From Morinoia aosen (taxonomy: Eukaryota; Arthropoda; Malacostraca; Amphipoda; Talitridae), in the NCBI GenBank assembly GCA_030386875.1, contig CM059573.1, positions 26,329,891 through 26,393,890 of the forward strand: a stretch of 64,000 nucleotides of DNA, written 5' to 3'. The notes below the pieces were generated by a model. It had not been told where the DNA came from. It saw only the letters and a list, made by a program, of their open reading frames with translations, and searched no databases. Below, in pieces: positions 189 through 36,545 of this stretch. Position 1 is the stretch's first letter; every line of letters starts with the position of its first letter. Both the position numbers and the translations under genes were made by a program.

Positions 189-268
189 CATACAGCCAAA
201 AAAATAAAGAAATATAAAGAAGGAATTTATCAGGTCATACTCAGATTAGATTAGATTAGATTAGATTA
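189..268 (+). repeat. 80-bp repeat ending in (GATTA)5
   Basis: This segment recurs almost exactly at 2500-2574. Both copies read CATACAGCC followed by an A-rich stretch and end in tandem GATTA units: five here and four in the second copy. The second copy lies inside the BEL pol fossil, while this one abuts the LTR-like segment starting at 269. A pentanucleotide tail of this kind could be the 3' end of a retroposed element or part of the BEL untranslated region. The sequence alone does not decide between these. Confidence 0.75.
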
Positions 269-953: not shown

Positions 954-1521
954 CACACTCCCTGCAGCAAAGTTAACGCCACCAGATAATTTTCGTCATT
1001 CACAATCAAATGTTCCACCAACTTCGCGGCATACCCTGCTAAGTAGCTCTTTAAATAAGTAAACTTAGCCGAACTCGACAAACCAGGTCTATGCCCAACA
1101 GCATTGTTGAAGGAAACCATAAAACTGTGAAAAGTCAGACAATCCCGAGAATCTCCCTTAAAAGGCTCTATTTTAATGGCTGGTAGTTTCACATCTTTCA
1201 CAAATTCAGCTTTCCCTGCAGTTTCACCTGAAGAGACGCTCTGCTTAGCGAAACTCTCAGCGCTAGTTCCACCTCTAGGTGATATGCCAGCTGAGCATCG
1301 ATCTCTGCATCAAGCGCTTCTTCTGAGATTTTTTCTTCTATCATCTGTGCAGTCAAAGCCTCATCACACTCCCTCACCTGACGTAGGTTACACTGTATGA
1401 GATCGCGATGTACTGCAAGTTCAGATGCAGAGTCTCTGGCTTGAGCATCCCGGGACTTCTTCATAGCCAGCGTTATCTTACGCTTGGAGACTCCCCGCTT
1501 TTGAGCGAGGGTACTATCCAT
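954..1521 (-). pseudogene. BEL/Pao gag fragment (fossil)
   Basis: The minus strand encodes the start of a BEL-type Gag: a charged, coiled-coil-like N-terminus from the ATG at 1521, then the family signature around LPAIKIEPFKGD and FTYLKSYL (DUF1759-like Gag region, about 985-1190). The gag sequence then runs straight into the LTR-like segment, so this is an old, truncated copy with more than one break. It sits head to head with the plus-strand pol remnant. The join lies somewhere between about 1521 and 1570. Confidence 0.75.
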
Positions 1522-1544
1522 TTTGGAACGGTAACAAGTCCTGC

Positions 1545-4098
1545 AAAAGAGCAATCTATAGAACCTGGAAGACGCACCCGTAGCGGCGAAAAGCCTACCT
1601 ACTCTTGAATTACTTGCCATTTACCTAGCCTTAAAGTGTTCTCTGACCATTTTAAATTCTTTAGATAGAGTAACTGTTACGGACTTGACTATTGCCACAG
1701 ATTCTCAAATTGCCCTCTCATGGGTTCTAAACAGGAAGACCAAGTCTGGAAATGTATTTGCCGACAACCGGGTAAAAGATATTCATCAATTTATAAATCA
1801 ACTTGGGGACGATTTCAATTTGACCTGTTCATTCAAGTTTGTACCTACTGCAAGTAATCCTGCTGACCTCATTACCAGAGGTTTAACGGTTGAACAACTT
1901 GCATCTAAATTCGACTTCTGGACTACAGGTCCCGATTTCCTTAAAGCCCCAAGCCACTGGCCCGTTGATGCCTTGGGATGCATCTCTACACCTAATCGTG
2001 CCTTGATTACTTGCTCTGCTGCTTCTGGAGTTGCGGAGAGCCCTCAACCGATTTTCAGTGTAAGTAAATTTTCAAGCTTGGACAAACTTGTTGGCGTGAC
2101 CCGAAGAATATTCTCTGTTTTTTTTTCACTAAGCGTAAATCTATTTCCAGGGATGAATGTGTACGAGCTGCTAAAATTTATTGGGCTAGACTTGAACAGC
2201 GTAAATATTTTGATGAAGAGTTTAGATTTCTGTCTTCGGACCTTCAGTCTACTGTTGTGCCTCAACTGGTGAGAAATTTAAACTTGTTCCTTGACAAGGA
2301 CGGGTGAATTCGGTCTCGTGGTCGACTTAATAAATGCACCTACCTTTCTTTTGACATTGCTAACCCCATTTTATTACCCAGAGGTTGCTTCTTTACGAAA
2401 CTTGTTGTAGAAGATTGCCATAAAAAATGTTGTCACTTGGGTTTGGCCTCTACGCTGAACGCTTTGCGCAACTTTGGTTCTGGCTTCCTTGCTGCGTCAC
2501 ATACAGCCAAAAAAATAAAGAAATATAAAGAAGGAATTTATCAGGTCATACTCAGATTAGATTAGATTAGATTAATGAAAGTATTACCAGACCAGAACCA
2601 GAATATCCCAACATGAATATCCTTAGTTACCGTACATGGGTATCGTAATACCCATGTCAATTTTCCAATGAATGATTGAGAGAAAAACATGAAAAGGGCA
2701 TGAGCGAAAATATTTTAAAACACCACAAATATATAAAAAGTTTGTTGCATAATGCTATCTAAACATAGTACTACACACTTGGGGCAATTTGTGAAATTGG
2801 CTAACGTAATATATTCATGAGCGTAAAAACGAGAAATTGCCACAAGAGTGTAAAGTGAAAGTAAAGCCCAGACCTGTAATCAAGAACATTCTAAAAGAGT
2901 GCATAATTTGTAAAAAAATTAATGTCCGTCACTTTGCATATCCAAAGCCTACGGATCTACCTTGAGATCGTGTAAATTTTGTTCAGCCATATCAAGCAGT
3001 TAGAATAGATTTCACTGGTGCTTTCCATGTACGACTGGGGGACAGATCAACAAAAATGTACGTGCTTCTTTCCACTTGTTTATGTGTACGCTTGGTTCAT
3101 CTAGAGCTAGTGCCAGACATGAGCGCCGATGCGTTCATCGCTGCATTTGAAAGGTTCACAAATAGATATGGTATGCCTAAAGTTATTTATAGTGATAACG
3201 CTCCCACTTTCACGCAGGGGGGAGAATTATTTGCTGGCTCTTCAATAGATTACGTTTTCATTCAGCATCTGATCATGAACAACGTCATACACGTTAAAAT
3301 ACCTCTTCACAGTGCTTGGTTTGGGGCTACTTGGGAACGTATGGTTGCCGTTGTAGCGCTGTTTGTTCAAAGCCGTTGGCCGAGGAAAGATAGAATACTT
3401 TGCTTTCTTAACTCTCTTGTCTGACATTCAAGAAGCTATCAATAACAGACCCTTAACTTACCAAGATGGTGCTGAGCGCGATCTCGAAGTAATAACTCCT
3501 AACTCCTTTCTTGAACTTTCTAATGCTGGTAATGTCACCTTTCTGGCTCAAGCTGGGAGCAAACTTATTAGCCCTTCACGTATTTCTATCTTGAAAAGCT
3601 TGGAGTTTCGCCAAGAAGCCTTTGAAAAGTCTCAAGACTCGTTTTTTTCAGACTACCTTCTTTCTCTGAGAGAGCGACACCTGCCTACTTATCAACTCTC
3701 TTGGGAAGACCGCATAAAAATTAAGTAGTTCTTATATCTTCTCCCGTGAAATCAAGGCCCTTCTGGTCATTGGGGTGAGTGGTGCGTTTGTATACCGGTG
3801 CAGACGGCCGAACTCGCTCTGTGCAGTTTATGAGAGCCGATCGGTCTCTCGGAGATTACGCGGTCTCGGTACTTTATCCTTTGGAACTTTTTGCTGATGC
3901 CGTTGCTACACCTTACTCTCAGGAACCCGATACTTCTTCTAATCCCTTGAATTCCTCATCTAACACAGATACTTCAAGCGGCTCGGTTCCGAGAAGGCGA
4001 ACACCCAGAGTCGCTGCGATGCGTTGTCGAGCTCGATTGCATGAGATATTCGACGACTCTCTCGGCCCCCCCGGGAGTGTGGGAGGAATTTCCTCACA
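1545..4098 (+). pseudogene. BEL/Pao pol fragment: RNase H, integrase, C-terminal domain (fossil)
   Basis: The plus strand encodes recognisable BEL/Pao Pol parts in the usual order. An RNase H-like region comes first (LELLAIYLALK near 1600, TDSQIALSW near 1700, NPADLITRG near 1855-1880). A zinc-binding and integrase core follows (about 2890-3400, with CIICKK, then YSDNAPTF near 3188-3211). Last is the C-terminal domain with NNRPLTY near 3442 and the DUF5641-like region near 3779-3900. The protease and reverse transcriptase are absent. The copy is old, broken in several places, and interrupted by a separate repeat insertion at about 2500-2848. A short palindrome resembling the LTR start of the minus-strand piece follows pol at about 4077-4098. 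Confidence 0.8.
2500..2848 (+). repeat. Composite repeat inserted in the BEL pol fossil
   Basis: Pol similarity stops near 2500 and resumes near 2850. The intervening 349 bp has two parts. Positions 2500-2574 copy 189-268. Positions about 2603-2848 copy 4270-4845 but lack two internal blocks of roughly 280 and 57 bp. It therefore looks like a short, internally deleted member of a dispersed family. A perfect 10-bp hairpin (ACATGGGTAT, loop CGTA, ATACCCATGT) lies at 2634-2657 and recurs at 4301-4324. Confidence 0.7.
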
Positions 4099-4269
4099 AG
4101 AGCGTCTAAAACTCTCTTCCAAAGAGAGATTTTTGAAATTATTGAACATTGAACATTGAAGAATTGAAACAACCAAGTAAAGTGAAAGATGTAGCACAAT
4201 ACGGAAATGAGACGAAAGAAACAGTTTATTTCCAGTGAAGATGATACAAAAACCATCACTGGCTTTAAA
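4099..4269. other. Sequence between BEL pol and the next repeat
   Basis: AT-rich sequence with small tandem ATTGAACATTGAACATTGAA repeats near 4140-4160. It may be the remains of the BEL downstream LTR, but I cannot match it to the minus-strand LTR-like segment. Confidence 0.35.
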
Positions 4270-4845
4270 ATATCGCAACATGAATATCCTTAGTTACCGT
4301 ACATGGGTATCGTAATACCCATGTCAATTTTCCAATGAATGATTGAGAGAAAAACATGAAAAGGGCATTCCCATAGTTACGTTATTGTAAGTTTTATAAT
4401 GCATGTAATTAGAAGTAATTAAAAAAACAGAATATAATGCCAGGGACACATTGATGAAAAAGCCTTTTTTTGCTTGGGCACACTTATCTTGAAATAAGAA
4501 CTTAATAACTTGCAATATTAAGAACAATGTTGAAAGTAAAATGGGTAGATTTAGATAATTCTACGTCTAAGACTAAAGGTAGAGTTTCGGAACAACTTTT
4601 TTCGTGCTTACGTATCAACTAGCATACCAAATAACTAGCTCGTAGAAAATATTTTAAAACACCACAAATATATAATATTACTACGTTAATAATGCTGGCG
4701 CAAAAAAACGCTACCGGAGTCAGAAACATGAAAAAGTTTGTTGCATAATGCTATCTCAACATAGTACAACACACTTGGGGCAATTTGTGAAATTGGCTAA
4801 CGTAATATATTCATGAGCGTAAAAACGAGAAATTGCCACAAGATT
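4270..4845 (+). repeat. Dispersed repeat, longer copy
   Basis: This is the longer version of the segment found inside the BEL fossil at 2603-2848. The first about 95 bp, a middle piece at 4646-4676 and the last about 95 bp are near-identical to the short copy. The extra blocks match, more loosely, sequence near 28.6 kb and 30.95 kb (for example AATAATGCTGGC followed by CAAAAAA at 4688 and about 30945). The 30.95-kb site lies beside a Tc1 transposase fossil. I infer a non-autonomous, internally deleted relative of that Tc1-like family. Confidence 0.65.
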
Positions 4846-5545: not shown

Positions 5546-8500
5546 CTATTCTAGCACTCTTCCTACTGGGCCACCACCCCACCACCCTTCTTCTAAGCCA
5601 CCATTTCCGCGGAGGATACTTCTTGGTTGCTGCAGAGCAGGATATGTTCCAATTATATGTTTTATCGTCAGCACCTCATCTCCGCACCATCCGCATGTGG
5701 GTCTCTGGCCCAGGGCTTTAGGGTTCAACAAATAGTTATGGGTGAGGGCGGTATGTTGCAATCGAAGTCTATTAATTATGATATCTTGGCGTTTCAACTT
5801 CTGCCGGCTCACTTTCCACCTTCCAGAACTGCCTGTCATCTCTTTCAGAACGCTTCGGTTTCGCTGCCACTCCTCATTCCATATTTCATACGTCCTCCTC
5901 CTTACCAATGGGAACCAGCCTTCGTATGGAATGAGGGCAAATTCTGACGGTCTCGTTGCTGCTTCTTTTGCTGCTCTGTCCGCACACTCATTCCCGCTTA
6001 TCCCCACGTGGGCTGGCTCCCAGCAGATTGTGATGCGCTTCCTTTCTAAGATGAATTGATGCATATCCAATAAAATCCTGTTGAGAAGCTGGTTGTCATC
6101 AGTATTATTGTCAATAGCCTGTATAGAGCTCATAGAATCGCTCAACAACACAAAGTTATGAAACTGTGTTTCTTTTATTATGCTGACTGCCAGTTTTATT
6201 GCATCAAGTTCTGCTGTCATAACACTTGCAACGGCCGGTAACGAGATTTTTTTTATGATGCTGCCCATCACTGCCGCTGCACCAACCCTCGTCTGAGACA
6301 TCGAACCGTCCGTGAAGATGAACTTGCAGTTACCGTATTTACTCGCTGTATCCTCATGCACGTGTCTCATGAGTGCCGGAGTTACCTCATCCTTTCTCAG
6401 CTTCACTATATTTTCCACGATGGTAAGCCGCTTCTGAACCCATGAATACGTCCCAGGAGTGAAGTATGGCTGGACTGGTTGCGTAGGAATTACTGTTTTA
6501 TGACTCGGCGGAGTTTCATGATGACAGATTTCGATGAGCGCTCACGGCTGCTAAAGAACAATTCTAAGTTTGAGTTGTGAATACACCGGTAGGCAGGGTT
6601 GAGGAAGGGGCATTTGAGTTTGAAAAGACTGCTAAGCAGTTCATTTCTTCTGAATTCTAGATTAGGTTCATTGGTGAGGATGTTCAAGTTTTGTACAGAC
6701 GTAGTCATGAAGGCTCCAGTGCTGATGCGCTTGGCCTCATTCAAGATGTCATCTAGCTCTTTCAGTGTTGTTGCGTTGGTTGATCCGTAAACTATGCAAC
6801 CATAGTCAATCTTTGGGCTGATTAAAGATCTGTATAGTTTCATGATGATTTCTTGATCTTCTCCCCATATATAGGAGACAGATTTCATTAGATTCAGGTT
6901 CTTTTTACATTTAGCTTGTGTTTTTTGGATATGTGCAATCCAGTTAAGTTTTCTGTCCCATTCCAGTCTTAAGAATTTTGAGTTTTCAACATTTGGTATA
7001 ATGTGGTCTTCCAGTTTCAGCGTTGGTAGAATTACTGGTTCGTTTCCTTTATAGAATTGCACGGCTGTTGTTTTGGAGGTTGAGAATCTGAAGCCGTTAT
7101 GTTTGGCCCAGCGGGTAACTCGGTTGATGGTTGCTTACAGTGTTTCTTGAACCATAGATGCACTGTGATCAGCAAAGGCGATGAGCAGGTCGTCCACAGA
7201 TAATGAAGCAAACACCTCCTCAGGAATTTCTTTAGCCAATGAATTGATTTTCAGAGCAAAGAGGGTGTACCATTCGCCAGTTCTTTTAGAGACGACAGCT
7301 GATGTTCCACTCTCACTTGGAATGTGCAATTCCTTAGAAATTCCCTTATGAGGTTGGACAACCCTCCTTTCAAACCTGCAGTCGCCAGATCCATCATTAT
7401 ACCATGACGCCACGTCATGTCGTAGGCTTTTTCTTGGTCAAAGAAGACTGCTAATACATATTTCCCTGCGGCGGGCGTTTGTCGTATGCAGGTGTCAAAT
7501 CTGATGAGATGGTCGATTTTGGCTCGGTGCTTTTTGAAGCCACACTGTATGTCTACGAATATTTTGTTATTTGCAAGATAGTCGATTAATCTTCGGTTTA
7601 TTATTTTCTCAAATGTCTTGCATATGCAGCTTGTCAGCAAGATGGGCCTGTAATTCTTAGGGTCTGTGTGGTGTTTGCCAGGCTTAGGAATAGGCAGAAT
7701 GATAGCTTGCTTCCATGGCTGGTAAAAGTACTCTTCCATCCATATTTTATTGTAGATATTCAGTAGGTATTGATGTGCCCTGTCTGGCAGATTTTTAATC
7801 ATAATGGAACTAATAACATCAGGTCCTGGGGCTGTATTTCTGTTACTCTTAATTGCTGACATAAGTTCTTCGAAGGTGAAAGGGCTATTGTAATGTTCGT
7901 CGTTGTTGCTTATTAGGTCCACTGGTATCTGCTCAATCTGTTGCTTGTACTGACGAAACTCGTTAGAATAGTTCTCATCGCTGGAAGTGTGGGCAAAGGT
8001 TTGTGCTAACTTCTCCGCAATGGTTGTTTTTGTAGAAGAAAGTTCGTTTTTTCCTTTCAATATTTTTATTCGTCTCTTGGCTCTGCCACGGAATCTGTTC
8101 CACTACTCGCAAATATAACTGCTTGGTGTGGTTGCGTTGAGCGATGACACATACTCGCGCCAGCTATTCTGCTTCGCTTCTCTGGAAGTACGTGTTGCCA
8201 CCGCTCTCGCCCATTTCCATTTTAGCTTGTCATCGAGCGCATTCGTCCGCTTGTAGTCCCTCTAACACTTCTCCCGCTCTCGCCACACTCTCCTGTACTC
8301 AGGGGTTTACCAAGGCTTTGCATAGTATCGTCGTGTATTGTTCGTTGGAATCCATTTGTCTGCTGTAGACCTGAATCTCTCCGACAGCTGCTTCAGGGTC
8401 TTCTGGTAATTCCTGCCGATGTACTTCTCTCCATATCGAGTCAGTCCGGTTTTCCTTCCAATTACCCTTTTTAAAATTTCCCCCACCATTTCATCTCTCC

Positions 8501-9152
8501 ACGCACATTGCTGTACAGTAATTGATAAAATAATCGGGTAGTGGTCACTATTGAATACTGCAGACAGGGCTGAAAAATTTATGTCGGGTGTTATATCAGA
8601 GGCAGTTAGCGCAAGATCGACACTGAGCCAGATATGTGAGTAGCTGAGATGTCATTTATGATGTTGAGATTAGTCTTGGTGAGGGCATTCTGCACTTAAC
8701 TGCCTCGGCGGTCTGTTGTCCTGTTTCCCCAATCGATGTGATGAGCATTGAAATCTCCAATCACCACACCCGGCTTGAGTAGTGCGTCCAGGTTGTTTGA
8801 GAGTTCTTGAAGGTTAACATTTGCTCCTGGTGGTAAGTATATATATGCTATGGTCATAATTTTATAGTTCGTCAGATGAATTCTTGCTCCTATGATCTGA
8901 AGCGACGACGGACTCAATTTCTTGGGTCGGTACTGAAGAATGAATATACTCGTATAATGCAACTCCTCCGTGATGTCTATGGTTGTAATGACCTTGTTTA
9001 CTGAATCCGTTGTAGACAGCTAGTGGTGATATGTAATCATTACCATTGAATGTCTCTTGAACTGCTATAACTACTGATTTGTACACGTCATTAAGGTTTA
9101 TCAAATCTTCCTCTGATGAGGCCATACCTTGTAGATTCCACTGTAGGAACAC
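5546..9152 (-). pseudogene. LINE ORF2: endonuclease, reverse transcriptase, RNase H
   Basis: An APE-type endonuclease comes first (QWNLQGM at 9145, QETF near 9060, GDFNAHH near 8745, SDHYPI near 8545). Reverse transcriptase follows (about 8060-6490), with NYRPILLTS near 7655 and FFDQEKAYD near 7440. The catalytic box reads SVDD near 7195, where the family normally has Y.DD. RNase H is at about 6316-5930, with FTDGS, TAELDAI, LLSDSMSS and ECADRAAKEA supplying the acidic residues. A C-terminal zinc-binding segment ends the protein (CGWCGDEVLTIKH near 5690). Pieces lie in different frames with at least six breaks, so it is a dead copy. The RNase H frame (6418-5546) is the longest open piece at 290 codons. 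Confidence 0.9.
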
Positions 9153-9444
9153 TTCACCCCCAGTTCCCTACTCACCGCCATTTCCTTCCACTTGCTCCTG
9201 GTCTCCGCTGCCCACTGTCTCTGGCTTGCCCTCTTTTCGGGGATACTCGTCTCCGGTCTTCTCGAGAGGTTCCACGCGATTTTTGAGTCCTATTTTTAGA
9301 CAAAAGATTCGCGTTTCTTAGTTCTTCTTCATACATGTCTCTGTCTACTTCACCGCTTCTGTCTGTTCTTGGCTTTTGTCCATGCTACTCGATGTTTTCC
9401 TTTTCTCAGCCCTTTTTTCCACTTTTGGAGGCATTAGTGCCTAG

Positions 9445-10523
9445 CTATAGGTTAATTGATGTTCTGTAAATTCTTCCAGTGTTTGGGCTCTCACAGACCG
9501 CTTCAGTCCCACCGCCACTTTCTTCATCAGCTCTCTGCCACCCACTACTCTTCTTTGTCATGTTACCAGTTGGGGTTTCAGCGCACTGCTTGATATTTTG
9601 TTGGCCTTCTGCACCATCGTCTTCTGAACGCTGGCGTGTTTTCGAATTCAATTTTTTAGTGTCATTGGTGGTGATTCCATCTGTGACAGCTTTGGAGTAG
9701 TTCATACTGAAGTTCGGATGACGTCTGTTAAAAAGAAGTTTGGCCTGTCCTTTGCACACTCTTTCCCGTCTCTGTATCATCAGGATTTCCTCCTCCACCT
9801 TCCTCATTTGACACACTTTAGGTCCAGCTGTATGTCCTTCACCACAGTGATAGCACTTGATTTCGTCGGACTCACACTTGTCAATTCCATGTCCTGCCTC
9901 ACTATACTTCAAGCATGATTCTTCCCCTTGACAATATTTGATTCCATGCCCATATTCTAAATATTTTTTGCACATCATTGGCTTAGGTTTAATTTCATAC
10001 ACTTTAGTTTTAGCTTGTTCGCCTGGTATGTCTATGTATCCTAGAATGGGTGGTTGTCTGAAGGACAGTAGTAGGGGTTTGGCATGCGCATTGGTGGGTT
10101 TTATCCAAGTTGCTTGAATCGAGTCCTGAATTCCGCACTTTTCCAGTAGACCCTTCTTGAATTGCTCAAAATTATTCATGTCGTATTCATAGACATATTG
10201 AGGCTTTCTTCAACTGAAACGGGGAACTGATACATCTGTTTTAATTGTTTCATTCTTTGGCTTTGCGCTGCGTCGCTCACTTCTACAGTAAATACCGTTT
10301 TGTTCGTTGATCTGATGGTTTTGGGTTTGCTTCCAAGCTGATTTGCTATGCATTTTTCTAATAGCCAAGGGGACAGATTTCGGCGGTGTGCTTCACTCAT
10401 TTTACAATCGAAGTGGGTAATATAGTTGGTTGATGGCATCGCACGTTCAGGCTTTGTTACTCCGTCGTTCAGTTGTTTTGTTCTTCGCCTTGTTACTTTT
10501 TCTCTCTGCATGATTTCCAACAC
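9445..10523 (-). pseudogene. LINE ORF1, second zinc-knuckle unit
   Basis: Two overlapping frames (10523-10176 and 10179-9445) carry a second Gag-like unit aligned with the first. ATWIKPTNAHAKPLLLSFR here corresponds to TFIKPRNPETQVFLITFR upstream, and YIDIPGE to NIYIPGE. Three knuckles follow at about 9955-9790. In the first two the second cysteine is replaced by tyrosine (CKKYLEYGHGIKYC and CLKYSEAGHGIDKC), while the third (CYHCGEGHTAGPKVC) is intact. The C-terminus is basic. Either the ORF1 domain was duplicated within one element, or two related copies were joined. Confidence 0.8.
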
Positions 10524-11293
10524 GTTCCTCTCTTCTATTTCTCCCCTACACGCAGTACTCCCTGCTGCATGTGAGCCTCCACAGTGGTTGCATTTCTCCT
10601 GGTCGGATGTGCAGCCTTGAGTAGAGTGACCGACTCCACCGCATCACCTGCACATCACTGCGCTGCTGAGGCATGCTCTGGTAGTGTGCCCATACGTTTG
10701 GCAGTGGTTACACATCGTAGGTTTATTGTTGAAAGTGTACACTCAAGTATCATGTCGTTCTCCAGGGATGTAGATATTGTTGGGTACATATTGTTGTCGA
10801 AAGGTTATTAAGAAGACTTGCGTTTCGGGGTTCCGTGGTTTGATGAATGTTGCTCTTGCTACGTTTCCACATTGTGTTCTTCTTGGAGTCCTACCTTGAA
10901 CTCCTCCACGTCTCTAATGATGAAGTCATTGACGTAAATTAGTCCAACTGAATGATTGAATCGGTCTTACTGCGTTGTCTGGCATGGCACATCTTCCACT
11001 CTCGAGAGATCTAAGATCTTCTCGGCCTGTCGCTCGCTGCGCATCTCCACCACCATCTCTAGGCTCATGCTGAAGAGTTGCTTCACTTTTTCTCCCGTGA
11101 CTTTAATGATTTCCTCCATTATACTGAAGTAGTTGACTCTTTTCTTTTCTTGTGGGGCAAAAGTTTTTGGGAAAGTAACTGTCTTCTGTAAGGTTAAGTG
11201 AATACACCAGTGTTTCTATTTCTGATCGGCTCCTCCAACGGTCGGTATCTTCGGGGACGGAGGCCCCTCCTCTGCAGTTTTCATCGTGTCCAT
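10510..11293 (-). pseudogene. LINE ORF1, first zinc-knuckle unit
   Basis: The reading frame starts at the ATG at 11293 and is interrupted by several stops and frame changes. The central part (about 10930-10740) has the non-LTR Gag-like fold signature, including TFIKPRNPETQVFLITFR. Three CCHC knuckles follow. The first is CNHCQTYGHTTRAC. The second has a stop codon between its first two cysteines. The third is the CX2CX3HX6C form, CNHCGGSHAAGSTAC. ORF1 proteins bind element RNA and assemble the ribonucleoprotein. A second unit of the same design follows directly downstream, which is unusual. Confidence 0.75.
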
Positions 11294-11814: not shown

Positions 11815-11818
11815 ACTG
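11815..11818. repeat. Target-site duplication, left (ACTG)
   Basis: ACTG immediately precedes the 5' LTR and is repeated immediately after the 3' LTR at 20807-20810. Confidence 0.85.
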
Positions 11819-13548
11819 TGTGAGGAAATACTACTCTCATAAGATTTTTTGGGGAATTTTTGGGAAATACTCTCGTAAAACATTTTTTTTGGGGAATTTT
11901 CGAGAAATACTCTCGTAAAATATTTTTTTTGGGGAAACAGGCTTGCAAAATGTTCTTTGGGAAAATACTTCACTTTATGGTTCAAAGATGCTGTGCTTTA
12001 TTTAGCGAGAGATGTTACAGCAAGGATTGGAATTTGACGGTTAGGCCGCCAAGTGGGGCTGCTTCGAGGGGGAAAAAGGGGAGACGTAGCAGAGAACCTA
12101 TTGTGCTGCACCAATGAACGCTTGCCTAGTGATCACGCGAGAAGGTGTGTCTGAGCACACACCAATGGGAGACCCAGACGTCAGAACAAACAAGAATCCC
12201 GCCAATCAGGATGCAGATACGGCCTCTGTAGATGGGATGCTTCGAGATCAATCTCGAAGCAAGGAAGCGAAACGCTTATAAGGAGGGGAGATGAAGCCTA
12301 AGCGAGGATTTTTGAACGCACGAGAGAGCACTACGCACGAGGGCTGAGGGTGCATTACGCAGCAGGTCGGCAATCGCCGGCTTGCCTTCTACCAAACTGC
12401 AATTTGAAAGTTAATAATTCGAAGTGCAAGAAACAACATTGGACGTCGGCAACCGGTGAACACCGTCTCACAAAAGAAACCTGATCGAAGTAAACCAGCC
12501 TCGCATCGGTGATCGTCATGTGTAAGCACGTCGGAGATTCAACCGAGAGCATTCAAGTATCTTTGCATCGGGGTCAAACTCACAAGCAACTTTAGCGTCA
12601 AGATGTGGAGCCACGCATTTGCTAACATTGCGAGTGTCAGCAGTCAAGTTCGTTCACCAACAATGCGAAAATCAACTCACAAAACTACAGTGAATTGGCG
12701 CACCAGCGAAACTCTTAAGAAATTCCCGGCACTAGGGCGGCTGTGAACACGAGCTGGGATGTCGGCAGCACGAAGAAGAAGCGGGAAGGCACCGCTGCAG
12801 CGCGTTAACGAGAGATCAGCCCAGAACAGCAGCGACTCTAAGCAACGACAAAGGAGATCAGCAGTGAAAGATAGCACATCGGCAGTGAATGTCTATCAGT
12901 GAACCACTTATTATCAAAGGGGCGAGTGTTTTATGGATGTGAGAGCTCTGTTAGGTGGTGATAAAAGTTCAATTTCAGATGTAGATCAGCACCCCAGGAA
13001 AGTGCTTTTCAAAGTGTCGCGCAAAATCATATAATTTGTAGGCAATCGGTTTCCTGTGTTTATTTAGTCGAGGATCGAATTCACGTTGTGAATTGTGCGG
13101 CGCTTCATATAATTCGACACCGTGTTGCAGCTCCAGGTTGAATCGTGATATGTTATTCTCGCTAATATTGTGTTTTATGTTGCTGTGGAACCTGCGGTTT
13201 TGTGGATGCGTAATTTGTTGTCTACGATGGAGTATTGGTAACTTGAATTCTCGGTAAGCATCACATTTATATCGTGTCACGTTTAGAGTCTTATAACGGT
13301 AGAATGTGTGTGCCTTTCATTAATGCAGTTGTGCCCTTTCAAATTATTTCGTTTCAATGCCTTGTGTGATTTATCCAGGTGTTTCCCCCAAATAAATTCA
13401 TGTAAATCTTCAATCCTTTTATTCTCCATGTCTGGTATGCAGGTGTACGCAAGCATGATGGACAATATTTTAAATTTTGCGGGGGTTGAGAGTCCCTCAG
13501 CGTATGGAAAGGGGGTCCTAAACCCACCCCTTTCTCCGTATCGCAACA
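11819..13548 (+). repeat. 5' LTR, 1730 bp
   Basis: The LTR runs from TGTGAGG to GCAACA. Its first about 130 bp hold three diverged tandem copies of a roughly 50-bp unit built on AATACTCTCGTAAAA, a T-run and GGGGAA. A promoter-like block lies at 12239-12283 and a polyadenylation signal (AATAAA) at 13391-13396, so a U3-R-U5 division is plausible. At 1.73 kb it is long for an insect LTR. It has no significant reading frame. Confidence 0.9.
12239..12283 (+). promoter_or_regulatory. Candidate LTR promoter: palindrome plus TATA box
   Basis: A perfect 9-bp hairpin (GCTTCGAGA, loop TCAA, TCTCGAAGC) at 12239-12260 is followed by TATAAGG at 12277. The same arrangement is present in the 3' LTR. The position within the LTR fits a U3 core promoter. 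Transcription start is inferred about 25-35 bp downstream and is not shown by the sequence. Confidence 0.5.
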
Positions 13549-14049
13549 AGAAAAATATATTAATTGTCCTATGCAAGCGTACTGTCTGTATATTGGCATA
13601 GAGAATTTTCTTTAATCATTTTCAGTTGCTTAAATTTTTATACAAGTTTTATAACGGTCCCTCAAGAAAGAATTCAATTAATGGTCCAGTCGTTTGCAAG
13701 GATTTGTCCGGCATTGTATTTCGCTTGCTCGGTGTAGTTTCTTGGGGCGGCCATTGTCTCGCTTACGAGAAATTGCCCTTCGTTGTGGTATGGCATTTCA
13801 CTGCTGTGAGTCATAAATGCGTGAGAGTGTGGAGCAATAAAATTTGAAATTCTTGCAGCTGCAGTCGGACCATTTCTGAGCGCCTAATTTAAAGTGTACT
13901 TGACTGAGTGTAATCCATGGCCATTAATTTCGAAATGCTATGAGAAATTGATATTTCCAGAATCTTTGCTCATTTTTCTCATGCCGCTAAGTTGATCTAG
14001 TTAATAGTGTCTGAGTGAATATTGCATCAAATACTTACTCTATTTTCTT
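13549..14049 (+). other. Leader of the LTR element interior
   Basis: The sequence directly after the 5' LTR should hold the primer-binding site. It begins AGAAAAATATATTAATTG and has no TGG start, so I cannot match it to a tRNA 3' end. No coding signal is visible. Confidence 0.4.
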
Positions 14050-15830
14050 GACAATGTGTTCGATAAAATTTTTCTTGAGTGCTGAATTTTTGGTTGAATC
14101 TTTCTATGATCTGTACAATTATTAGTTGTAACTGAATTTAGGTGTGAAGCATTGGCTGTGGAAAATGACGCCTTAACTTCAGCAAACACCGCCTTAGCAC
14201 AAGTGAATCTTCGAGACAAGTTTACATTTTCCGGGCTTTGAGACATTTAGTAATTAATCTAGTTGGAATTGTTATTTTTAAAGGATACCTCACTTATAAA
14301 TAATTTGCAGAATTTTTTTGGCCTCGTGTGTGTCAAGCTTCTCCAATCAGCTTTAGCAACATGATTAATATTGGATTCGAAAACATTTGAGCATTTAATT
14401 TATAATAATTAACATATGCTGAATTTGAATTGAATGTTTCCAGGATGTATCAATCCATTACAATTTACTGAGCGACATGTTGAGAGCAATGGATCCCTAT
14501 TTTTATACGTTAAATTTCAGCAGTTACCGCCATATATCAGTTGAAACATTTGAATAAATTTTAATTTTCTTAGTGGGCAGGAATAGCTAATGACTGAACA
14601 AGTCAAATTTCATATTGTGACCAGTTCAAATTATGAGGTGAAAATGCTTGAGGTATTGTGTAACTTAGAGTCCGACAATTCCTTTCAAACCAGCTTTGGC
14701 AATATGATCCACAGTTTCATTCATTAAAATCCGAGTATTTATTTGTGATGATAAAAACAAAGTTTTCTGAGATGTGGTGACGGAGTTTTTGAGAATAAAT
14801 TTCCCTGCTATCAATGGGGCTGAAAAATTTTGTTGCGGATTGTTGAATGAATTAAGTGACGGTGCTTAGAATAATAATCAATTGTAGTGTTTTAGAGTAA
14901 GTGATAATTTTCAACGATGCTGCACTTGCAATTCATTTCATTTTATTCTGCAGGCGGAAAATAACAGTTGAATGCCGTTGTGATGAGAATATAATCAGCA
15001 TGAATTGAACTAATGGAATCCGATGCATTTGCTGAGCGAGTATTCGTGCAGAGCTCTGTCTTGAATATGTGTTTCATAAAATTTTCAGTAGGCTGTTTTC
15101 TTATTGAATGTTTCCAGGATTTATTACCTTTAATGCTCATTGGTTTTATGTGTAGAACGATGACCCCGGATGTGTGCCTATATTTTTAAAGTGAAATCGC
15201 CTTACACCACTTGAAAATTTGAAACAAATTTTTTTTTTGGGTGTTCAGATATATTGAATGACTGAGCAAGTTTAATGTTATTATGACACCTCGATTGAAT
15301 TTAATTTAAGAGTTTTCTTGAAGTTTAATATGAATGTAAATTTGCCCTAACAAGCTCAGTAATACAAATTTTTTTTACCCGTTGAGGTGAGAGTATTTAA
15401 AGAAGAATGGTTGATGTCTTCTGCCAAATAATCATGGGATAATTTGAAAAATGAATTTTGTTCCTTGCTGTCAAATGCAAAGTAAATTAAATTTTTCATG
15501 CCGGTGTCTGATGGAAGCTGAGTCAGTGACGGTGCCTAGAATAATAAATTTTAATGAAGTGTACTCGGTTCCTCTCTGAGAGTGTGTTGCATCTTCTGAA
15601 AAGGCCACGCAGCCAATTCTTGGATAAATTTAGTTACTTAGAGATAAAATATCGCCACACACGTGACCAGTAAAGTAAAAATCATTTGTTGAATTTCAGC
15701 ATTTATAACAATTTCATGCAAGACTCCAGTGTTCAAGAGTGAGAAGTGAATATTGCTTTTTTTCTGAGCTGTTGCTGAATTCGATTGTTTCAATGTAATT
15801 TGTTTTGTTATTCTTCTCAAATTCCGTGGA
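14050..15830 (+). repeat. Diverged tandem modules with ~670-bp period
   Basis: Several landmarks recur at a constant offset: TGAATGTTTCCAGGAT at 14431 and 15105, GTGACGGTGC.TAGAATAATA at 14856 and 15527, and TGACTGA.CAAGT near 14593 and 15260. A weaker third occurrence of the first landmark lies near 15775, and an earlier partial one near 14060-14100. The spacings (666-674 bp) point to an old tandem duplication inside the LTR element. The modules are far more diverged than the LTRs, so the repetition was present in the parent element before this insertion. Confidence 0.7.
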
Positions 15831-17126
15831 CATAAAATCTTTAGAGCGTCATACCACTATTCATATAAAGTCCTTGGAAAATATAATTTTTTTTTGTCGA
15901 GTGTTTGGCGAATAAATTTAGTGTGCTTCAATTTCAGCTCCATAGGTGGGTTGAAACTCTATTAATAATTAAGTATACGTAGTTTTAGGAAAATAACACG
16001 TGGGGTGCAGACACATTTTGCCTATTCCGTTACATGTCAGCAATGAATAAATTTTCCTTTTTTAAAGTGTGCGTTAATGGAAAAATTGTGTATTTTTCTT
16101 CAAGTCGTTGGTTGTTTAAGGGAATGTTCAAGTTATACTCATGTGAGAGGTGCAAATTATGTCTTACTGAAACTGAATTCTACTACAGCGAAAGAGAGAG
16201 AGTTGTGTAGATGTTGAAGAAATACTGCGCAATTCTCGAGTCGGATTCAACCTCGTATTTTATCGCAAAGTAAAGTATTGCCTTGTGTGAGAGATGAATA
16301 TTTCCTGCGTACGCCTGGGGTTATTGTCTCCCTAAACAGGAAAATTTACTTGTCGTATAAAGGTAATTTGCCTGGTGTTTACATATAAATTTATCCCTGA
16401 ACATCCCTGAGAATTCTTCAGAATATTTTTGGATTTTTATAATGGATTCCTAGTATTTGTCTAAGCATTCTCTCTCGTTCGTGCGCGGATTTTGGACAGG
16501 TTCGTACGAGGTAGCTTTGCCTGATCAACGAAGTAACTCAAGCGTACCGTCTGAGGTTTGGGCACGAGATTGAGGGAGCGGGAGCATACGACAATGCTTT
16601 GAATGTTGAATGTTAACATGATTAAGCAGTAACTTTAAACAAATTGTGTGGACCGTTTCGTCAGTAATTGAAATTAAATCGTTAATTGCTGGCGAGAGTA
16701 GGTTTGCATAATTAGGATGGATTTATCAACTTCATTAGGATATGTTCATTTTCTACAACGAAAATGCTCAATATTTCGAGATGGAGTGTAATTTCTGCAG
16801 ACGCATTGATTATTGCGTAAAAATTGAAAATGAATTACGACTGGAATGTACAAGTGAAATCTTCATTGAGATTGTATGTAAGAGAGGTACACCGTGCAGC
16901 AGAGAGCCTCTGCCGGAATTTTATTGCTTTATGGATAGCACAAGCAATTAAGAAATTGTGGCGGTACGTTCAAGCTGATGTGGTTAAAACTCTAGTGTGG
17001 TATTACGGAACGCAAGAATGTAGGATGTTGTGAGAACATGGAAAGAATGTATATTAAATGGTATCAGTAGCATTGAAGTAAATGCGTTTAAATTGAAGGA
17101 CGACGAAGAAAATGATATCGTTGAAT

Positions 17127-17785
17127 AACAATTGTGCAATGTCTCAAAGGCTGAGAATTAGGTGAATAATCATGTCATTTTTTTTGCATTTTTTTGTGTG
17201 TGTTATCAGGATGTTAGATCATCAGAACGGCTGTTCTCAGCACAAGTGTGATGTAAAGTCTGACAGAGTGATGACACATTGTGTATACATTTTAGTAGAT
17301 TAAGTGCGTTAGGGATTTCAGCCTAATTGGTAAATCTCCCGATTCTGCGTACAATATTTGTGTGAAGGTTTATATAATCTTGTGGCAACGTGGAATCATT
17401 TAAATGTGCTGCACTGTCTCTGGGGCTGAGAATCGTATAAAATTTTGTGTCATGTCTATTGTTTTTTTTGCATTTTTGTATCAGTATCACAATGTCAGAT
17501 CGTCTGAAGAGCCTTTCGGCGTAGTAAGGTGTAAAGTTTGACGGGTTGATAACACTACATTTTGTCTATTTTTGCATTTCTTTGTATGTCGGGGGTTGTC
17601 AAAATGTCGGATCGTTAGAAAAGCCTTCGCGGCAGAGTATAACGTAAAGTTCGATGTGTTAACAATACCCAATTTACATGTGCTTTTTCTTTATTGGTGC
17701 GGATTCGGGATTTTGGCCTACCTGGCAATTCTCCTGATAGTTCGTACGTCATGTGCAAAATGTTATCTTCGAAACATTTAGGTGA
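17127..17785 (+). repeat. Second set of diverged tandem modules
   Basis: A module with a T-run, GCATTTTT.TGT, ATGT.(A/G)GATC, AGA and then GTAAAGT appears at about 17177, 17463 and 17571. A partner block (CCTA.TGG.AA.TCTCC.GAT) lies at 17325 and 17718. A CTGAGAAT block lies at 17151 and 17424. The irregular order suggests repeated unequal duplication of a roughly 110-270-bp unit. Confidence 0.6.
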
Positions 17786-18327
17786 TTCAACTGATTAGTG
17801 ACACCGTCGAACGAATTTCGGCTTTTGTCTAGAGTTGGTTGAGGATACCGGAAATTAAATATTTTATGTATGTATGTGGGAATTCTTCGCGTAGCTCACG
17901 TCCGCCTCACTCAAGGCAGATTTGAAGGAAACCGAGGAACAATTCTTACGTTGATCGACCATGTAATGCGCTGTCTCTCGAGTACAATGGACCAGGTTAG
18001 ACAATTTAACGCGTATTTACGGAAGGAGATCATTAGCAATTTAACGCGAACCTCAGGGGTCAATGTTATGCTAGGCGACGAGCAGACTGAGAACTAAAAC
18101 CTGAAGATCTTCGCAAATAAATGTGCTTCATTTTCTACAATTATGATGAAAGAGCTGATGAGCTCCTACGTGGGAGTCCAATGCGCATTTGACGCAGTAA
18201 TCTACAGGATTTGTCCGCGATTTGACGCAGCGAGGATCTACGGAATTTTCCACGAGTTCACGTGGCGCCAAGGATGAATTTTTATGGAAAAGCTTCAGTA
18301 ACTTCGATTCTCAGCAGGGGGCCCTCC

Positions 18328-18417
18328 CCAGGATCAGTAGCAAGCCCAGGATCAGTAGCAAGCCCAGGATCAGTAGCAAGCCCAGGATCAGTAGCAAGCC
18401 CAGGATCAGTAGCAAAC
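18328..18417 (+). repeat. 18-bp minisatellite, five units
   Basis: Five near-perfect copies of CAGGATCAGTAGCAAGCC stand in tandem. Because 18 is a multiple of three, the array keeps one frame open and would encode repeated RISSKP if translated. I regard that as incidental, since no start or conserved protein surrounds it. Confidence 0.9.
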
Positions 18418-19023
18418 CGAAGAGGAGTAGCACGTCACAGGAACAACAACAACAAGCTGTACCTAGGTGCACAGGAGGAGCAACAGCAAGTTTTTGTTGC
18501 AAGAAATACGTCTACTCTGAATCACAGGATGAAATGATAATTATGAGGAAGAAAACTTGAGGTTGGAAAATTACCTCCATTTTGAGATTTTGTTTTTAGG
18601 TGGATTGCAATCGAGAAAGCTGAAAGGATGTCTCTGCTTGTACAAAAGTCGCCTATTTTCGATCTCTAATTTGTATGTTTATCTATGTTGATGAATTTGC
18701 CGAGAGCAAGTTGAGAATAATAAGATGTCGTGTGTGTTTTATTTTATGCGTTGAAGTGTCCGATTTATGCGTTATCTTTGATGTGTTCTTTTCTCCTTGC
18801 GTTCTATAATAATGTGTATAAGAAATGTGCGTTTCAAGTATTAGGTGTGTGTCAGGTATTAATGAACTTTTTATAAATGCGTCAACATCGGCGTAAATCA
18901 TGAGGTGAGATGTAAGGATATTTTCATGTCAGGAAAAGCGAAGGGATTGAAAAATGGGGGCGAATATTTTCTAAATTTTTAACGTAAGGGGTAAGTCACG
19001 GTTATAATTGAAATTAACGGATG

Positions 19024-19079
19024 AAAATTTGCACCAACTTTGCAAGTTGGCACAAATTTTTCTGGGGCGAAGCGGGTAT
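19024..19079 (+). promoter_or_regulatory. Hairpin and candidate polypurine tract before 3' LTR
   Basis: A near-perfect inverted repeat (17-nt arms with two mismatches around TGC, 19024-19060) is followed by the purine-rich GGGGCGAAGCGGG at 19064-19076, three bases before the 3' LTR. The position fits the plus-strand primer of an LTR element. The purine run contains two C residues, so the call is tentative. Confidence 0.5.
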
Positions 19080-20806
19080 TGTGAGGAAATACTACTCTCA
19101 TAAGATTTTTTGGGAATTTTTGGGAAATACTCTCGTAAAACATTTTTTTGGGGAATTTTTGAGAAATACTCTCGTAAAATATTTTTTTGGGGAAACAGGC
19201 TTGCAAAATGTTCTTTGGGAAAATACTTCACTTTATGGTTCAAAGATGCTGTGCTTTATTTAGCGAGAGATGTTACAGCAAGGATTGGAATTTGACGGTT
19301 AGGCCGCCAAGCGGGGCTGCTTCGAGGGGGAAAAAGGGGAGACGTAGCAGAGAACCTATTGTGCTGCACCAATGAACGCTTGCCTAGTGATCACGCGAGA
19401 AGGTGTGTCTGAGCACACACCAATGGGAGACCCAGACGTCAGAACAAACAAGAATCCCGCCAATCAGGATGCAGATACGGCCTCTGTAGATGGGATGCTT
19501 CGAGATCAATCTCGAAGCAAGGAAGCGAAACGCTTATAAGGAGGGGAGATGAAGCCTAAGGGAGGATTTTTGAACGCACGAGAGAGCACTACGCACGAGG
19601 GCTGAGGGTGCATTACGCAGCAGGTCGGCAATCGCCGGCTTGCCTCCTACCAAACTGCAATTTGAAAGTTAATAATTCGAAGTGCAAGAAACAACATTGG
19701 ACGTCGGCAACCGGTGAACACCGTCTCACAAAAGAAACCTAATCGAAGTAAACCAGCCTCGCATCGGTGATCGTCATGTGTAAGCACGTCGGAGATTCAA
19801 CCGAGAGCATTCAAGTATCTTTGCATCGGGGTCAAACTCACAAGCAACTTTAGCGTCAAGATGTGGAGCCACGCATTTGCTAACATTGCGAGTGTCAGCA
19901 GTCAAGTTCGTTCACCAACAATGCGAAAATCAACTCACAAAACTACAGTGAATTGGCGCACCAGCGAAACTCTTACGAAATTCCCGGCACCAGGGCGGCT
20001 GTGAACACGAGCTGGGATGTCGGCAGCACGAAGAAGAAGCGGGAAGGCACCGCTGCAGCGCGTTAACGAGAGATCAGCCCAGAACAGCAGCGACTCTAAG
20101 CAACGACAAAGGAGATCAGCAGTGAAAGATAGCACATCGGCAGTGAATGTCTATCAGTGAACCACTTATTATCAAAGGGGCGAGTGTTTTATGGATGTGA
20201 GAGCTCTGTTAGGTGGTGATAAAAGTTCAATTTCAGATGTAGATCAGCACCCCAGGAAAGTGCTTTTCAAAGTGTCGCGCAAAATCATATAATTTGTAGG
20301 CAATCGGTTTCCTGTGTTTATTTAGTCGAGGATCGAATTCACGTTGTGAATTGTGCGGCGCTTCATATAATTCGACACCGTGTTGCAGCTCCAGGTTGAA
20401 TCGTGATATGTTATTCTCGCTAATATTGTGTTTTATGTTGCTGTGGAACCTGCGGTTTTGTGGATGCGTAATTTGTTGTCTACGATGGAGTATTTGTAAC
20501 TTGAATTCTCGGTAAGCATCACATTTATATCGTGTCACGTTTAGAGTCTTATAACGGTAGAATGTGTGTGCCTTTCATTAATGCAGTTGTGCCCTTTCAA
20601 ATTATTTCGTTTCAATGCCTTGTGTGATTTATCCAGGTGTTTCCCCAAAATAAATTCATGTAAATCTTCAATCCTTTTATTCTCCATGTCTGGTATGCAG
20701 GTGTACGCAAGCATGATGGACAATATTTTAAATTTTGCGGGGGTTGAGAGTCCCTCAGCGTATGGAAAGGGGGTCCTAAACCCACCCCTTTCTCTGTATC
20801 GCAACA
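19080..20806 (+). repeat. 3' LTR, 1727 bp
   Basis: It matches the 5' LTR along its full length with about a dozen substitutions and a few length differences in T, G or C runs, or roughly 99% identity by eye. The hairpin/TATA block (about 19498-19540) and the AATAAA at 20649-20654 are conserved. The LTR ends in GCAACA followed by the ACTG duplication. Confidence 0.9.
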
Positions 20807-20810
20807 ACTG
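20807..20810. repeat. Target-site duplication, right (ACTG)
   Basis: Matches 11815-11818 exactly. Confidence 0.85.
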
Positions 20811-24599: not shown

Positions 24600-25190
24600 G
24601 GCCTGGATTGCGCACACCTAAAACCAGCTCACGGAATGGACATTCACATAGTTAACGACAATAGTCACCAACCTCCACAAGTCCGTGAGCCTCAGCGAGT
24701 GAGCGGAGCAGAGGTAGGCAGGCGTAGACGTCGCAGCAGCTGGTGGCACACTCAGCCCATCACCACATCCCCAGCCGTGCAGAACATGACGAAAGGGTCG
24801 CCAGAAACTCCCCCAGGACAGAAGGCGCAGGAAGCACAGTCGGAAGTTTGCAAAGCAGCTGGATGCGGGGAGGCGTCACGGATGACGTCACGTTAGACCT
24901 CAGAGTGCGTATGCAGTGGTGCCAGCTCGGAGAGCAGGAGTGAACTGCTCAGACAGCTCCGAGACGAGTTAAAGTAACCTCTGCTGTTTAAGGCAGGTTG
25001 TATTCAGGCAACGACATGTCGGCTAACTACATGAATGTCACCCATGGTGCTGGAGTGGTACGCAATCATTTTTATGTATCCATCAGAATTCAACTTAAAC
25101 CTAGAAATACTTTATTGCAAATAAAGTTGGTTCCAAATTGAATCCTTAACTTTGAAGGTTCTTCACAGTATTTGGCAATTTATGGTTTAA
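24600..25190. other. GC-rich patch of unknown origin
   Basis: Positions about 24640-24960 are clearly GC-richer than the surroundings and open in two plus-strand frames (86 and 66 codons), with an arginine-rich stretch but no domain I recognise. Candidates are a piece of an LTR, a non-coding exon or a promoter region. The rest, to the TTAA at 25187, is AT-rich and unremarkable. Confidence 0.35.
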
Positions 25191-25876
25191 GGGACTTGGA
25201 GGAATGAGGAATTGGAAATTAATTCTTCGGAATTGGGGACCTAACTTAAAACTCCTGGTAATTTGTTCTTCTACTGACTTGATATGTGCTAAACGGACCT
25301 AAATTAACCTGCCTCACCTCTTCTAACTCAAATTGATTTATTAAAATGTGTCGTAGCGCATTTTTGGCAAGATGACGTGATACTCGTATGTGATGTATCA
25401 TAACATCAGCTGGCTGTTTTCTGCACCGAGTTTTTTCGATTGCTGACAAGTTTGTTTCCCGCAGCGCTATTTTTTGTATTGAAAGAACTAGAAGCCCTTT
25501 AGTGCTGCAATGTACTGAGTGAAAAATCCATCATATCTATTACATGAGGAATTTTTCACTCTACATTGCAGCACTAAGGGCTTACATTTCTTTCAATACA
25601 AAAACAGCGCGGCGGAAACAAACTTTTCAGCAATTAAAAAACCTCGGTGCATAAAACAGCCAGCTGACGTCATGATGGCATCACATATGACGTCACCTTG
25701 TCAAAAATGCGCTACAAAACATTTTAATAAATCAATTCAAGTTAGGCGAGGTGAGGCAGGCTCATTTAGGTCCGTTTAGCACATGTCGAATCAGTAGAAA
25801 AAACAAATTACAAGGAGTTTCAAGTTAGGCCCCCATTACGAAGGATTAATTTCCAGTTCCTTGTTCTTAAAGTCCC
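25191..25876. mobile_element. 686-bp foldback element flanked by TTAA
   Basis: Two arms of roughly 330-340 bp are inverted complements at about 85% identity around a short central loop near 25531-25548. The ends are GGGACTT and AAGTCCC, with TTAA on each side (25187-25190 and 25877-25880). TTAA duplication is the hallmark of piggyBac-type integration. Very long arms with no coding capacity make this a foldback or long-TIR MITE. The arms include GACGTCA-type palindromes. The right TTAA is also the left TTAA of the next element. Confidence 0.85.
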
Positions 25877-25880
25877 TTAA

Positions 25881-27021
25881 GGGGTCAACCCAGCGATTGT
25901 TAATTTTTGATCCGATTCGTTTGAAATATAGCCAGTATGCATATTTTTTGAAAAAAAAACATATTTTACTCCTATAACTTTTCGATTTAGGCCTTATTTC
26001 TTTGAAAATATGAAATATCAGTTTTTTAGTACATTTTCATGGATATTTCAAAAGAATATAAGTCATTGAGTTTTTATGCTAAAACAAAACCAAAGACAGT
26101 TTTAGAATCCTTGAAGCACTGCAAACAAAGTTCCGGTCTCAAATTTTCCATTTGAAACTTTTCGTTTTTTTGTTTGCGATATTTGAGCACTAACTAAATA
26201 TACACAAATTTTGGGTTTTGAGCTATGCTAAAAAAATACTTATGTATAATTCGGAAACAAGGGACCGTAACTTTGTTAGAAATGTTCCAAGGATTCTAAA
26301 ACTGTGTTTGTTTTTTGCCTAGCATAAAAACTCGCTGACTTCTATTCTTTTGAATGTTGAAAATAAGGCTTGTTGGTAATAAGGCATAGATAATTTTTTT
26401 ATATGAACGTTAATATAGTGGACAATTTATGTAATTGAATGCTGTTTTCATTTTAATTTCGATAATCTCTATGCACAACTTCATATTCACACTGTGAATA
26501 GTAATTTACAACAAAAAAATAAAAAAAATCTTTTTTATAAAAATTATGAGCTTTTATATTTGTAGTCTGATTCTTATGAAATTTGACTATAGTATGTAAT
26601 TTTAAAAAGAAACACAATTTCTTCTATTCATTTTTTCGATTCAGGCCTTAGTTTTTTGAAAAAAATTGGACATATTGGTTTTTTAGTTGATTTTTATTGA
26701 TATTTCAAAAAAATAGAACTCATTGAGTTTTTTGCTAGAACAAAACCAAAGATAGTTTCAGAATCCTTGAAGCATTGTACACAAAGTTACGCTTTCAAAT
26801 TTTCAATTTCTAGTTTTGTTTTCTTTTCATATGGGGTCGAAAATTCAGGATCTTAGGTCCCCTTACACATCCCTGGAGAGGGGGGAGTGAATCTAGTGTC
26901 CGTAGCGCCATGAAATTTTAGGACAGAATAGTCCACCACCTAAGGGTCCTTTTCAACAACAACAACAAAAAAATTGCTCATCGTACCGACATGGGCCTGG
27001 CAGGGGCCTGGGTTGACCCCC
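25881..27021. mobile_element. 1141-bp TTAA element with internal foldback units
   Basis: The ends are GGGGTCAACCCAG and CTGGGTTGACCCCC, inverted complements of 13 bp, flanked by TTAA at 25877-25880 and 27022-27025. It encodes no transposase. The interior carries a core sequence (TGCTAGAACAAAACCAAAGA) forward at 26077 and 26733 and reversed at about 26290-26325, so parts can fold back. The right portion contains GTGTCCGTAGCGCCAT and CCACCACCTAAGGGTCCTTT, which recur at 32.7-32.9 kb. Likely a non-autonomous piggyBac-type family. Confidence 0.8.
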
Positions 27022-27669: not shown

Positions 27670-27939
27670 CACGTTCGTCGCGTTTTGGGCCGTTTGTGTC
27701 CCAACCGGTAAATTTCCAATTCACTTTCTGATATAAATGAATGACGTTTCATCTGTTTCGCCACCTTTTTAATGAATAAATTATCATACAAGGTGAAATT
27801 GTACCGTGCAATTGTATTTACATATTTCTTGGGAAGGATGAAAATGCATTCGAGCGGTAAAGTCTATATATTTCCCTCTTCTGCTACTTTCAGCCTAACC
27901 AAACCAATCGTTAACAGCCAGGGATACGCGATGAATGTG
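27670..27939 (+). mobile_element. 270-bp TTAA MITE, copy 1
   Basis: It is flanked by TTAA at 27666-27669 and TTAG at 27940, with ends CACGTTCGTCGCG and CGCGATGAATGTG as imperfect inverted repeats. A full-length relative lies inverted at 35123-35391 (269 bp). Shared internal landmarks are CATCTGTTTCGC, CCGTGCAATTGTAT, TTCTGCTACTT and CAACCTAACCAAACCAA-like sequence. No coding capacity. The end sequence and TTAA site suggest a piggyBac-related MITE. Confidence 0.8.
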
Positions 27940-28008
27940 TTAGGTTAGATTAGATAAGGTTAAAGTTAGGTTAGGATGGGTTAGTATAGGTTAGGTAAGG
28001 TTTTGTTC
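27940..28008 (+). repeat. Degenerate TTAGG/TTAGGTTAGG patch
   Basis: About 65 bp with many TTAGG or GGTTA units interspersed with variants. It resembles interstitial insect-type telomere repeats. The array is short and irregular. Confidence 0.6.
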
Positions 28009-36343: not shown

Positions 36344-36545
36344 CAGTAGCGGCCATAATGGTTCGGACAACTAACAACTCGACCAACTGTCATCAATAAC
36401 TTCAATACTATGTAGAAGCTGCAATGAGCTCAATTTATGTCTTACCTAGCAGGTGTTAAAATCTTAAATCATTTGTGTGTACATAACACAAGTGCAGAAT
36501 GGTACATTAGAATAGTAAAAATTTCATGTGGTCAAAAAAGTTCGG

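Follow-up and report, generated by a model that had tools for sequence, protein, structure and literature searches.

A young LTR element of the amphipod Morinoia aosen with a non-coding interior and a triplicated covarying hairpin

An 8,988-bp element (positions 11819–20806) lies within the 64,000-nt stretch of Morinoia aosen DNA analysed here (called the window). It raises the question of how an element in which no Gag or Pol domain can be recognized came to be inserted recently, and whether any part of its interior RNA has been under selection.

The element was bounded by long terminal repeats (LTRs), whose extent was taken from alignment of the repeats and whose ends were read directly. The 5′ LTR was 1730 bp (11819–13548, + strand) and the 3′ LTR 1727 bp (19080–20806, + strand). 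Each began with TGTGAGGAAATA (TGTGAGG) and ended with GTATCGCAACA (GCAACA), giving the paired direct repeats with TG...CA ends of an LTR retroelement. The flanks read ...CTCTACTG upstream of the element and ACTGAGTG... downstream, and ACTG directly adjoined the outer end of both LTRs (11815–11818 and 20807–20810), forming a 4-bp target-site duplication, within the range of 4–6 bp for LTR retroelements. Over 1727 aligned columns the two LTRs differed by 10 substitutions (6 transitions and 4 transversions) besides 3 one-base indels, and the K2P divergence was 0.0058. This is a complete LTR element that was inserted recently. The earlier note had described it so, with the right coordinates, and the TG...CA ends, the ACTG on both sides and the 10 differences in 1727 positions bear this out. 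No second copy was detected in the window by blastn of the window against itself (E up to 1e-5).

Several other repeats were seen in the window. An integrase-like piece (2966–3421, + strand; E 4e-7, just under the Pfam cut-off) and a DUF1759 piece on the opposite strand (809–1309) are presumably BEL/Pao-like. The region from 189 to 4843 contained several short direct repeats of 98–100% identity (189–263/2500–2574, 2602–2701/4269–4368 and 2735–2847/4731–4843) and looked like a rearranged or nested pair of elements. On the − strand at 5549–10643 was a non-LTR retrotransposon (LINE) with reverse transcriptase and RNase H domains, split across several frames, in which CCHC-like motifs were read by eye. 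About 700 bp at 25187–25880 matched their own reverse complement at 84%, as a long diverged palindrome or a foldback element would. Repeats ~74–93% alike, in both orientations, were common within and between 25904–26809 and 31569–32940. A Tc1-like transposase N-terminus (Pfam HTH_Tnp_Tc3_2, E 2.6e-12) was found at 36428–36817, and a degenerate GTTAG (TTAGG-type) array (27939–28002; 12.6 copies, 70% matches) was possibly an interstitial telomere-like repeat. The integrase-like and DUF1759 pieces, the LINE, the Tc1-like transposase and this array are the kind of neighbours to be expected in an arthropod genome. When 71 flanking pieces of at least 72 aa (20810–64000) were compared with Pfam, three untrusted matches (E 0.0003–0.002) were obtained besides the transposase domains.

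The 5′ LTR contained 2.3 copies of a 40-bp tandem repeat in U3 (11824–11936, + strand; in the 3′ LTR at 19084–19195), a TATA-like box TATAAG (12277–12282, + strand), from which a transcript start is predicted ~25–30 bases downstream, and an AATAAA poly(A) signal (13391–13396, + strand). Judged as sequence motifs, a promoter and a poly(A) signal were therefore both present on the + strand in retroviral order. The positions of the box and of AATAAA suggest an LTR in which U3 takes up ~490 bp and is followed by a long R (~1.1 kb) and then a short U5. A strong hairpin was predicted at the end of U5 (13500–13544, + strand); its copy in the 3′ LTR had the same fold with one base changed.

The 3′ ends of tRNAs read CCA, and a tRNA primer-binding site is accordingly expected to begin with TGG. 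The first TGG began 46 nt past the 5′ LTR, in a test that consisted of this TGG search and a search for self-complementarity. Self-priming of the Tf1 type was rejected, as no exact complement of at least 9 nt was found between the LTR and the first 100 nt after the 5′ LTR. No purine run of at least 7 occurred within the last 80 nt upstream of the 3′ LTR; reading by eye gave a weak polypurine-tract candidate, GGGGCGAAGCGGG (19064–19076, + strand; 11 of 13 purines). Just upstream of the 3′ LTR a hairpin was predicted at 19023–19063 (+ strand), with a z of −1.4 that was not significant. The main oddity of this locus is a young element without a recognizable primer site.

No Gag or Pol domain, and no other credible Pfam match, was found on either strand of the 5,531-bp interior (13549–19079, + strand). 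Fifty-eight stop-free interior pieces of at least 40 aa, compared singly with Pfam, gave ten weak matches, of which KOW was the best (E 0.023). With X in place of stops, twelve half-interior frames (six per strand) gave one match, ECM29_N, with an E of 0.021, under its cut-off; interior pieces shorter than 40 aa were covered by these frames alone. When the 5′ LTR and both junctions of LTR and interior were examined through another ten pieces, three weak matches appeared, none reaching its cut-off (best E 0.021). The longest stop-free interior frame, of 119 aa, was equalled in 78 of 200 dinucleotide shuffles. Three-base periodicity at p ≤0.01 was seen in 4 of 89 interior windows versus 3 of 334 control windows, by a test of limited power in which known coding pieces of the window scored only moderately; all four periodic interior windows overlay a perfect 18-bp tandem array (18327–18415, + strand; 4.9 copies) revealed by repeat finding. 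Two coding candidates were rejected. A short conserved protein at 17843–18094 had no Pfam match better than E 0.023, a best PDB match of E 1.1 and marginal three-base periodicity (p 0.04–0.05), and the open reading frames over 18201–18557 contained the 18-bp array, the source of the sole significant periodicity. Like a LARD (large retrotransposon derivative), the element has a large non-coding interior, and the absence of Gag and Pol from 13549–19079 claimed in the earlier note was upheld, Pfam scans of both strands having given only weak matches (best E 0.021).

From the K2P of 0.0058, ~16 interior substitutions are expected by arithmetic since insertion. Gag-pol could not have been erased by so few changes, and the interior would already have lacked coding capacity when the element inserted. 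The enzymes would then have come from elsewhere, and movement would most likely have been in trans; such movement, also proposed before, is probable from the young LTRs together with the non-coding interior.

When the interior was compared with itself, five direct but diverged matches emerged (E 4e-21 to 5e-10), against none in 30 shuffles. They revealed an ancient diverged tandem array in the order A A B A B (14044–15562, + strand; 0 of 30 shuffles), with spacings of 339, 674 and 1013 and matched blocks 57–60% identical. The array may extend to 15735, by forced alignment only. In forced alignment A and B units were 35–43% identical, near chance, so they need not be related; matches of an array profile fell mostly on the units from which it was built and are thus no independent proof. 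A second ancient duplication (17044–17360/17429–17755, + strand) was 60% identical, with an additional 65% match at a different offset. The divergence of these duplications far exceeds that of the LTRs, indicating that they long predate this insertion. An interior that grew by old internal duplications, and that has long been non-coding, would best explain these sequences.

Within the second duplication were three ~78-nt hairpins, detected by folding and covariation, H1 (17202–17281), H2 (17483–17559) and H3 (17595–17672), all on the + strand and 60–69% identical. Folded alone, each copy gave the same plan. From the outside inward, this was an outer stem, a small internal loop, a stem of 8–9 bp, a 4-nt bulge on the 3′ side within an invariant GUAAAGU, a stem of 5 bp followed by another internal loop, and a stem of 3–4 bp with a small loop at the tip. 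Stability z-scores of the single copies were −3.4, −1.0 and −1.8, two of the three being not unusually stable. Nineteen pairs were common to the three independent folds. In an alignment made from sequence only, 65 of 68 cells paired (95.6%), versus 26–52% when the partners were slid by 1–3 columns. The percentage paired was equalled in 6 of 500 shuffles; six of 23 pairs had changed on both sides (reached by 8 of 500), and the covariation score was reached by 1 of 500, while the number of further pair types was unremarkable (210 of 500). Pairs were counted on the consensus predicted from the alignment itself, after the tighter cut had left out three outer pairs that each had one cell gapped or broken; both the choice of this consensus and the trimming favour the true over the slid alignments. 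The alignment had 13 G-U cells and 2 A-C cells, which points to the + strand as the structured one, the strand also indicated by the signals in the LTR.

A stronger test was the prediction of one copy's pairs from another copy's own fold. With the wider cut, P was 0.0000–0.018 in six comparisons. With the exact cut on the + strand, P was <0.001 in five of six and 0.056 in the sixth, and on the − strand one of six was below 0.05 (0.032). Applied to slices of the A repeats, which are equally old, the same test gave P <0.05 twice in 24 + strand comparisons and never in 24 − strand comparisons. The consensus folding energy of the second duplication was −43.6 kcal/mol, versus a weak −9.8 kcal/mol each for the A and the B repeats. 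A consensus structure was accordingly rejected for the A repeats, on this energy and the mostly null cross-prediction, and for the B repeats on energy only. Another hairpin of the second duplication (K, 17300–17360/17692–17755) looked conserved in the alignment and failed the same cross-prediction in its permutation test. A covariance model of the three H copies found no fourth copy on the + strand of the element or of the whole window, and its two other matches in the element were both on the − strand (E 0.4 and 3.9). No Rfam match was obtained for the element, whether the gathering threshold was applied or E was allowed to reach 1. The covariation rests on three copies, few for statistics, in a segment noticed after several repeats had been viewed; even so, we judge it probable that selection has acted on the pairing itself.

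The rest of the interior folded ordinarily. In 91 interior and 150 same-window control windows per strand, mean folding z was −0.16 versus −0.13 on the + strand and 0.27 versus −0.17 on the − strand. In 80-nt windows mean z was −0.08 for interior and control alike, with z < −3 in 7 of 276 and 8 of 500, respectively. RNA structure throughout the interior was therefore rejected, its average folding energies being like those of control DNA. The proposal of selection on RNA structure is thus supported in part, for the three covarying hairpins at 17.20–17.67 kb but not for the whole of the interior. One hairpin of 29 pairs stood out at 16642–16713 (+ strand; z −7.4); it had no second copy in the window and is a possible small-RNA precursor.

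Animal elements of the LARD-like kind are already known, so the kind is not new. LARDs have been annotated in honey bee (PMC4028053), bumblebees (PMC4414376) and whitefly (PMC9143410); these are insect non-coding LTR derivatives like the Morinoia element, but genome-wide computational categories. In Culex quinquefasciatus, 38 non-coding, non-autonomous LTR retrotransposons (cqUNK) were described, each with a listed primer tRNA, in a study that also reported most of its defective LTR candidates to be false positives (PMC3286476). According to that description, cqUNK elements resemble the Morinoia element in being non-coding, in having tandem repeats between the LTRs and no known coding master copy, in LTRs >98% alike and in target duplications where found. 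They differ in their sharply defined primer sites and polypurine tracts, whereas no primer site was recognizable here, and in their LTR length (125–931 bp as tabulated, versus 1.73 kb; PMC3286476). In the Morinoia element the main repeats show far greater divergence, with covarying hairpins among them. Grass LARDs (Sukkula and relatives) are likewise large, LTR-bounded and without protein-coding capacity (PMC3532108, PMC7215508), and are said to specify well-conserved RNA secondary structures (PMC7215508). Typically they have ~4.4-kb LTRs and a 3.5-kb central domain (PMC3532108), proportions that are reversed in the Morinoia element. Such elements are described as typically keeping priming sites (PMC3286476), whereas no primer site was found here. 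Among mouse elements, ETn, with no coding capacity, is moved by MusD, and the non-autonomous VL30 by MLV (PMC6466679); these are animal LTR elements mobilized in trans whose helpers are known, and they are likened to the present one by mechanism, not sequence. Plant retrozymes (PMC4918200) are also non-autonomous retrotransposons with a structured RNA motif, but theirs is a hammerhead ribozyme, and the Morinoia element matched no Rfam family.

The element works like a LARD or ETn, yet it is not filed as a strict LARD, because its primer-binding site is unrecognizable and its polypurine tract doubtful; strict membership is not supported when the first TGG lies 46 nt past the 5′ LTR and the 80 nt before the 3′ LTR lack any run of 7 or more purines. 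What sets it apart from the known kind is the triplicated covarying hairpin, together with the missing primer site. In the open literature searched, no animal non-coding LTR element was reported to have a covarying hairpin, and no relatives were found in public viral and phage collections. A search of genome collections returned three bacterial or archaeal records with an 18-base pattern, and a second genome search returned nothing. The three records were rejected as relatives, since blastn with the LTR gave the 18-mer and one 20-base piece at 95%, and the interior gave nothing.

On this evidence we consider it likely that the locus is a non-autonomous, non-coding LTR retroelement that was moved in trans. 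Pol II would make an RNA of ~8.4 kb from the promoter-like box in one LTR to the poly(A) signal. Since the element has no recognizable Gag or Pol, this RNA would depend for its packaging, copying and integration on proteins encoded by another LTR element of the genome. The TG...CA ends with the 4-bp duplication point to an integrase of the retroviral type. The three + strand hairpins are proposed as RNA sites for packaging by the helper (Gag) or for a nuclear-export factor. As a candidate binding site for one of these, the H hairpin would have its likeliest role, tentative as that assignment is. Mason-Pfizer monkey virus exports its RNA by a secondary structure that binds NXF1/NXT1 (PMC10309623), a precedent for the export version only, by function rather than by compared structure. 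A bolder reading, in which transposition needs no canonical tRNA primer site and the triplicated hairpin is the handle by which a helper's proteins select the element's RNA, is improbable. The preferred explanation has points against it, too. A recently copied element should somehow have both a primer site and a polypurine tract, and here the one is unrecognizable and the other weak. One copy only is at hand, so that a family is not proved, and no helper was seen. The interior folds ordinarily overall, and the hairpin copies are few and their segment was chosen post hoc.

The missing primer site and the lack of a clear polypurine tract would be explained if a coding LTR element or endogenous retrovirus had decayed, or had its interior replaced up to both borders, after insertion. 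LTRs with just 10 differences in 1727 aligned positions argue against this, as do the frames with X at stops, which showed no decayed domain, and an exchanged interior would be unlikely to stop precisely at the two LTR borders; we regard this reading as improbable. Still less credit is due to an origin of the two repeats by segmental or tandem duplication, with only the look of LTRs. LTR finders can be misled by long direct repeats that lack clear priming sites, but such an origin is made highly improbable here by the TG...CA ends, by the 4 bp duplicated at the two outer ends and by the retroviral order of the promoter-like and poly(A) signals.

Pairing might also have been selected in the host before capture, if the element had taken up a host non-coding RNA locus, for example a cluster of small-RNA hairpins. 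Three ~78-nt hairpins within 0.5 kb, a 29-pair hairpin nearby and duplications far older than the insertion are in keeping with such a capture. The lack of any Rfam match, even with E allowed to reach 1, speaks against it. So does the shape of H, with its conserved 4-nt bulge and wide internal loops, which are not typical of miRNA precursors. Capture of a host RNA locus is thus unlikely, and a non-coding element moved in trans remains our preferred explanation.

Non-coding LTR elements are usually filed as debris. With old duplicates inside a single young copy, this one carries an internal test of selection that shows where its RNA was under constraint. Should relatives bear this out, the hairpin would be a concrete candidate for how a helper recognizes the RNA of its parasite in an animal.
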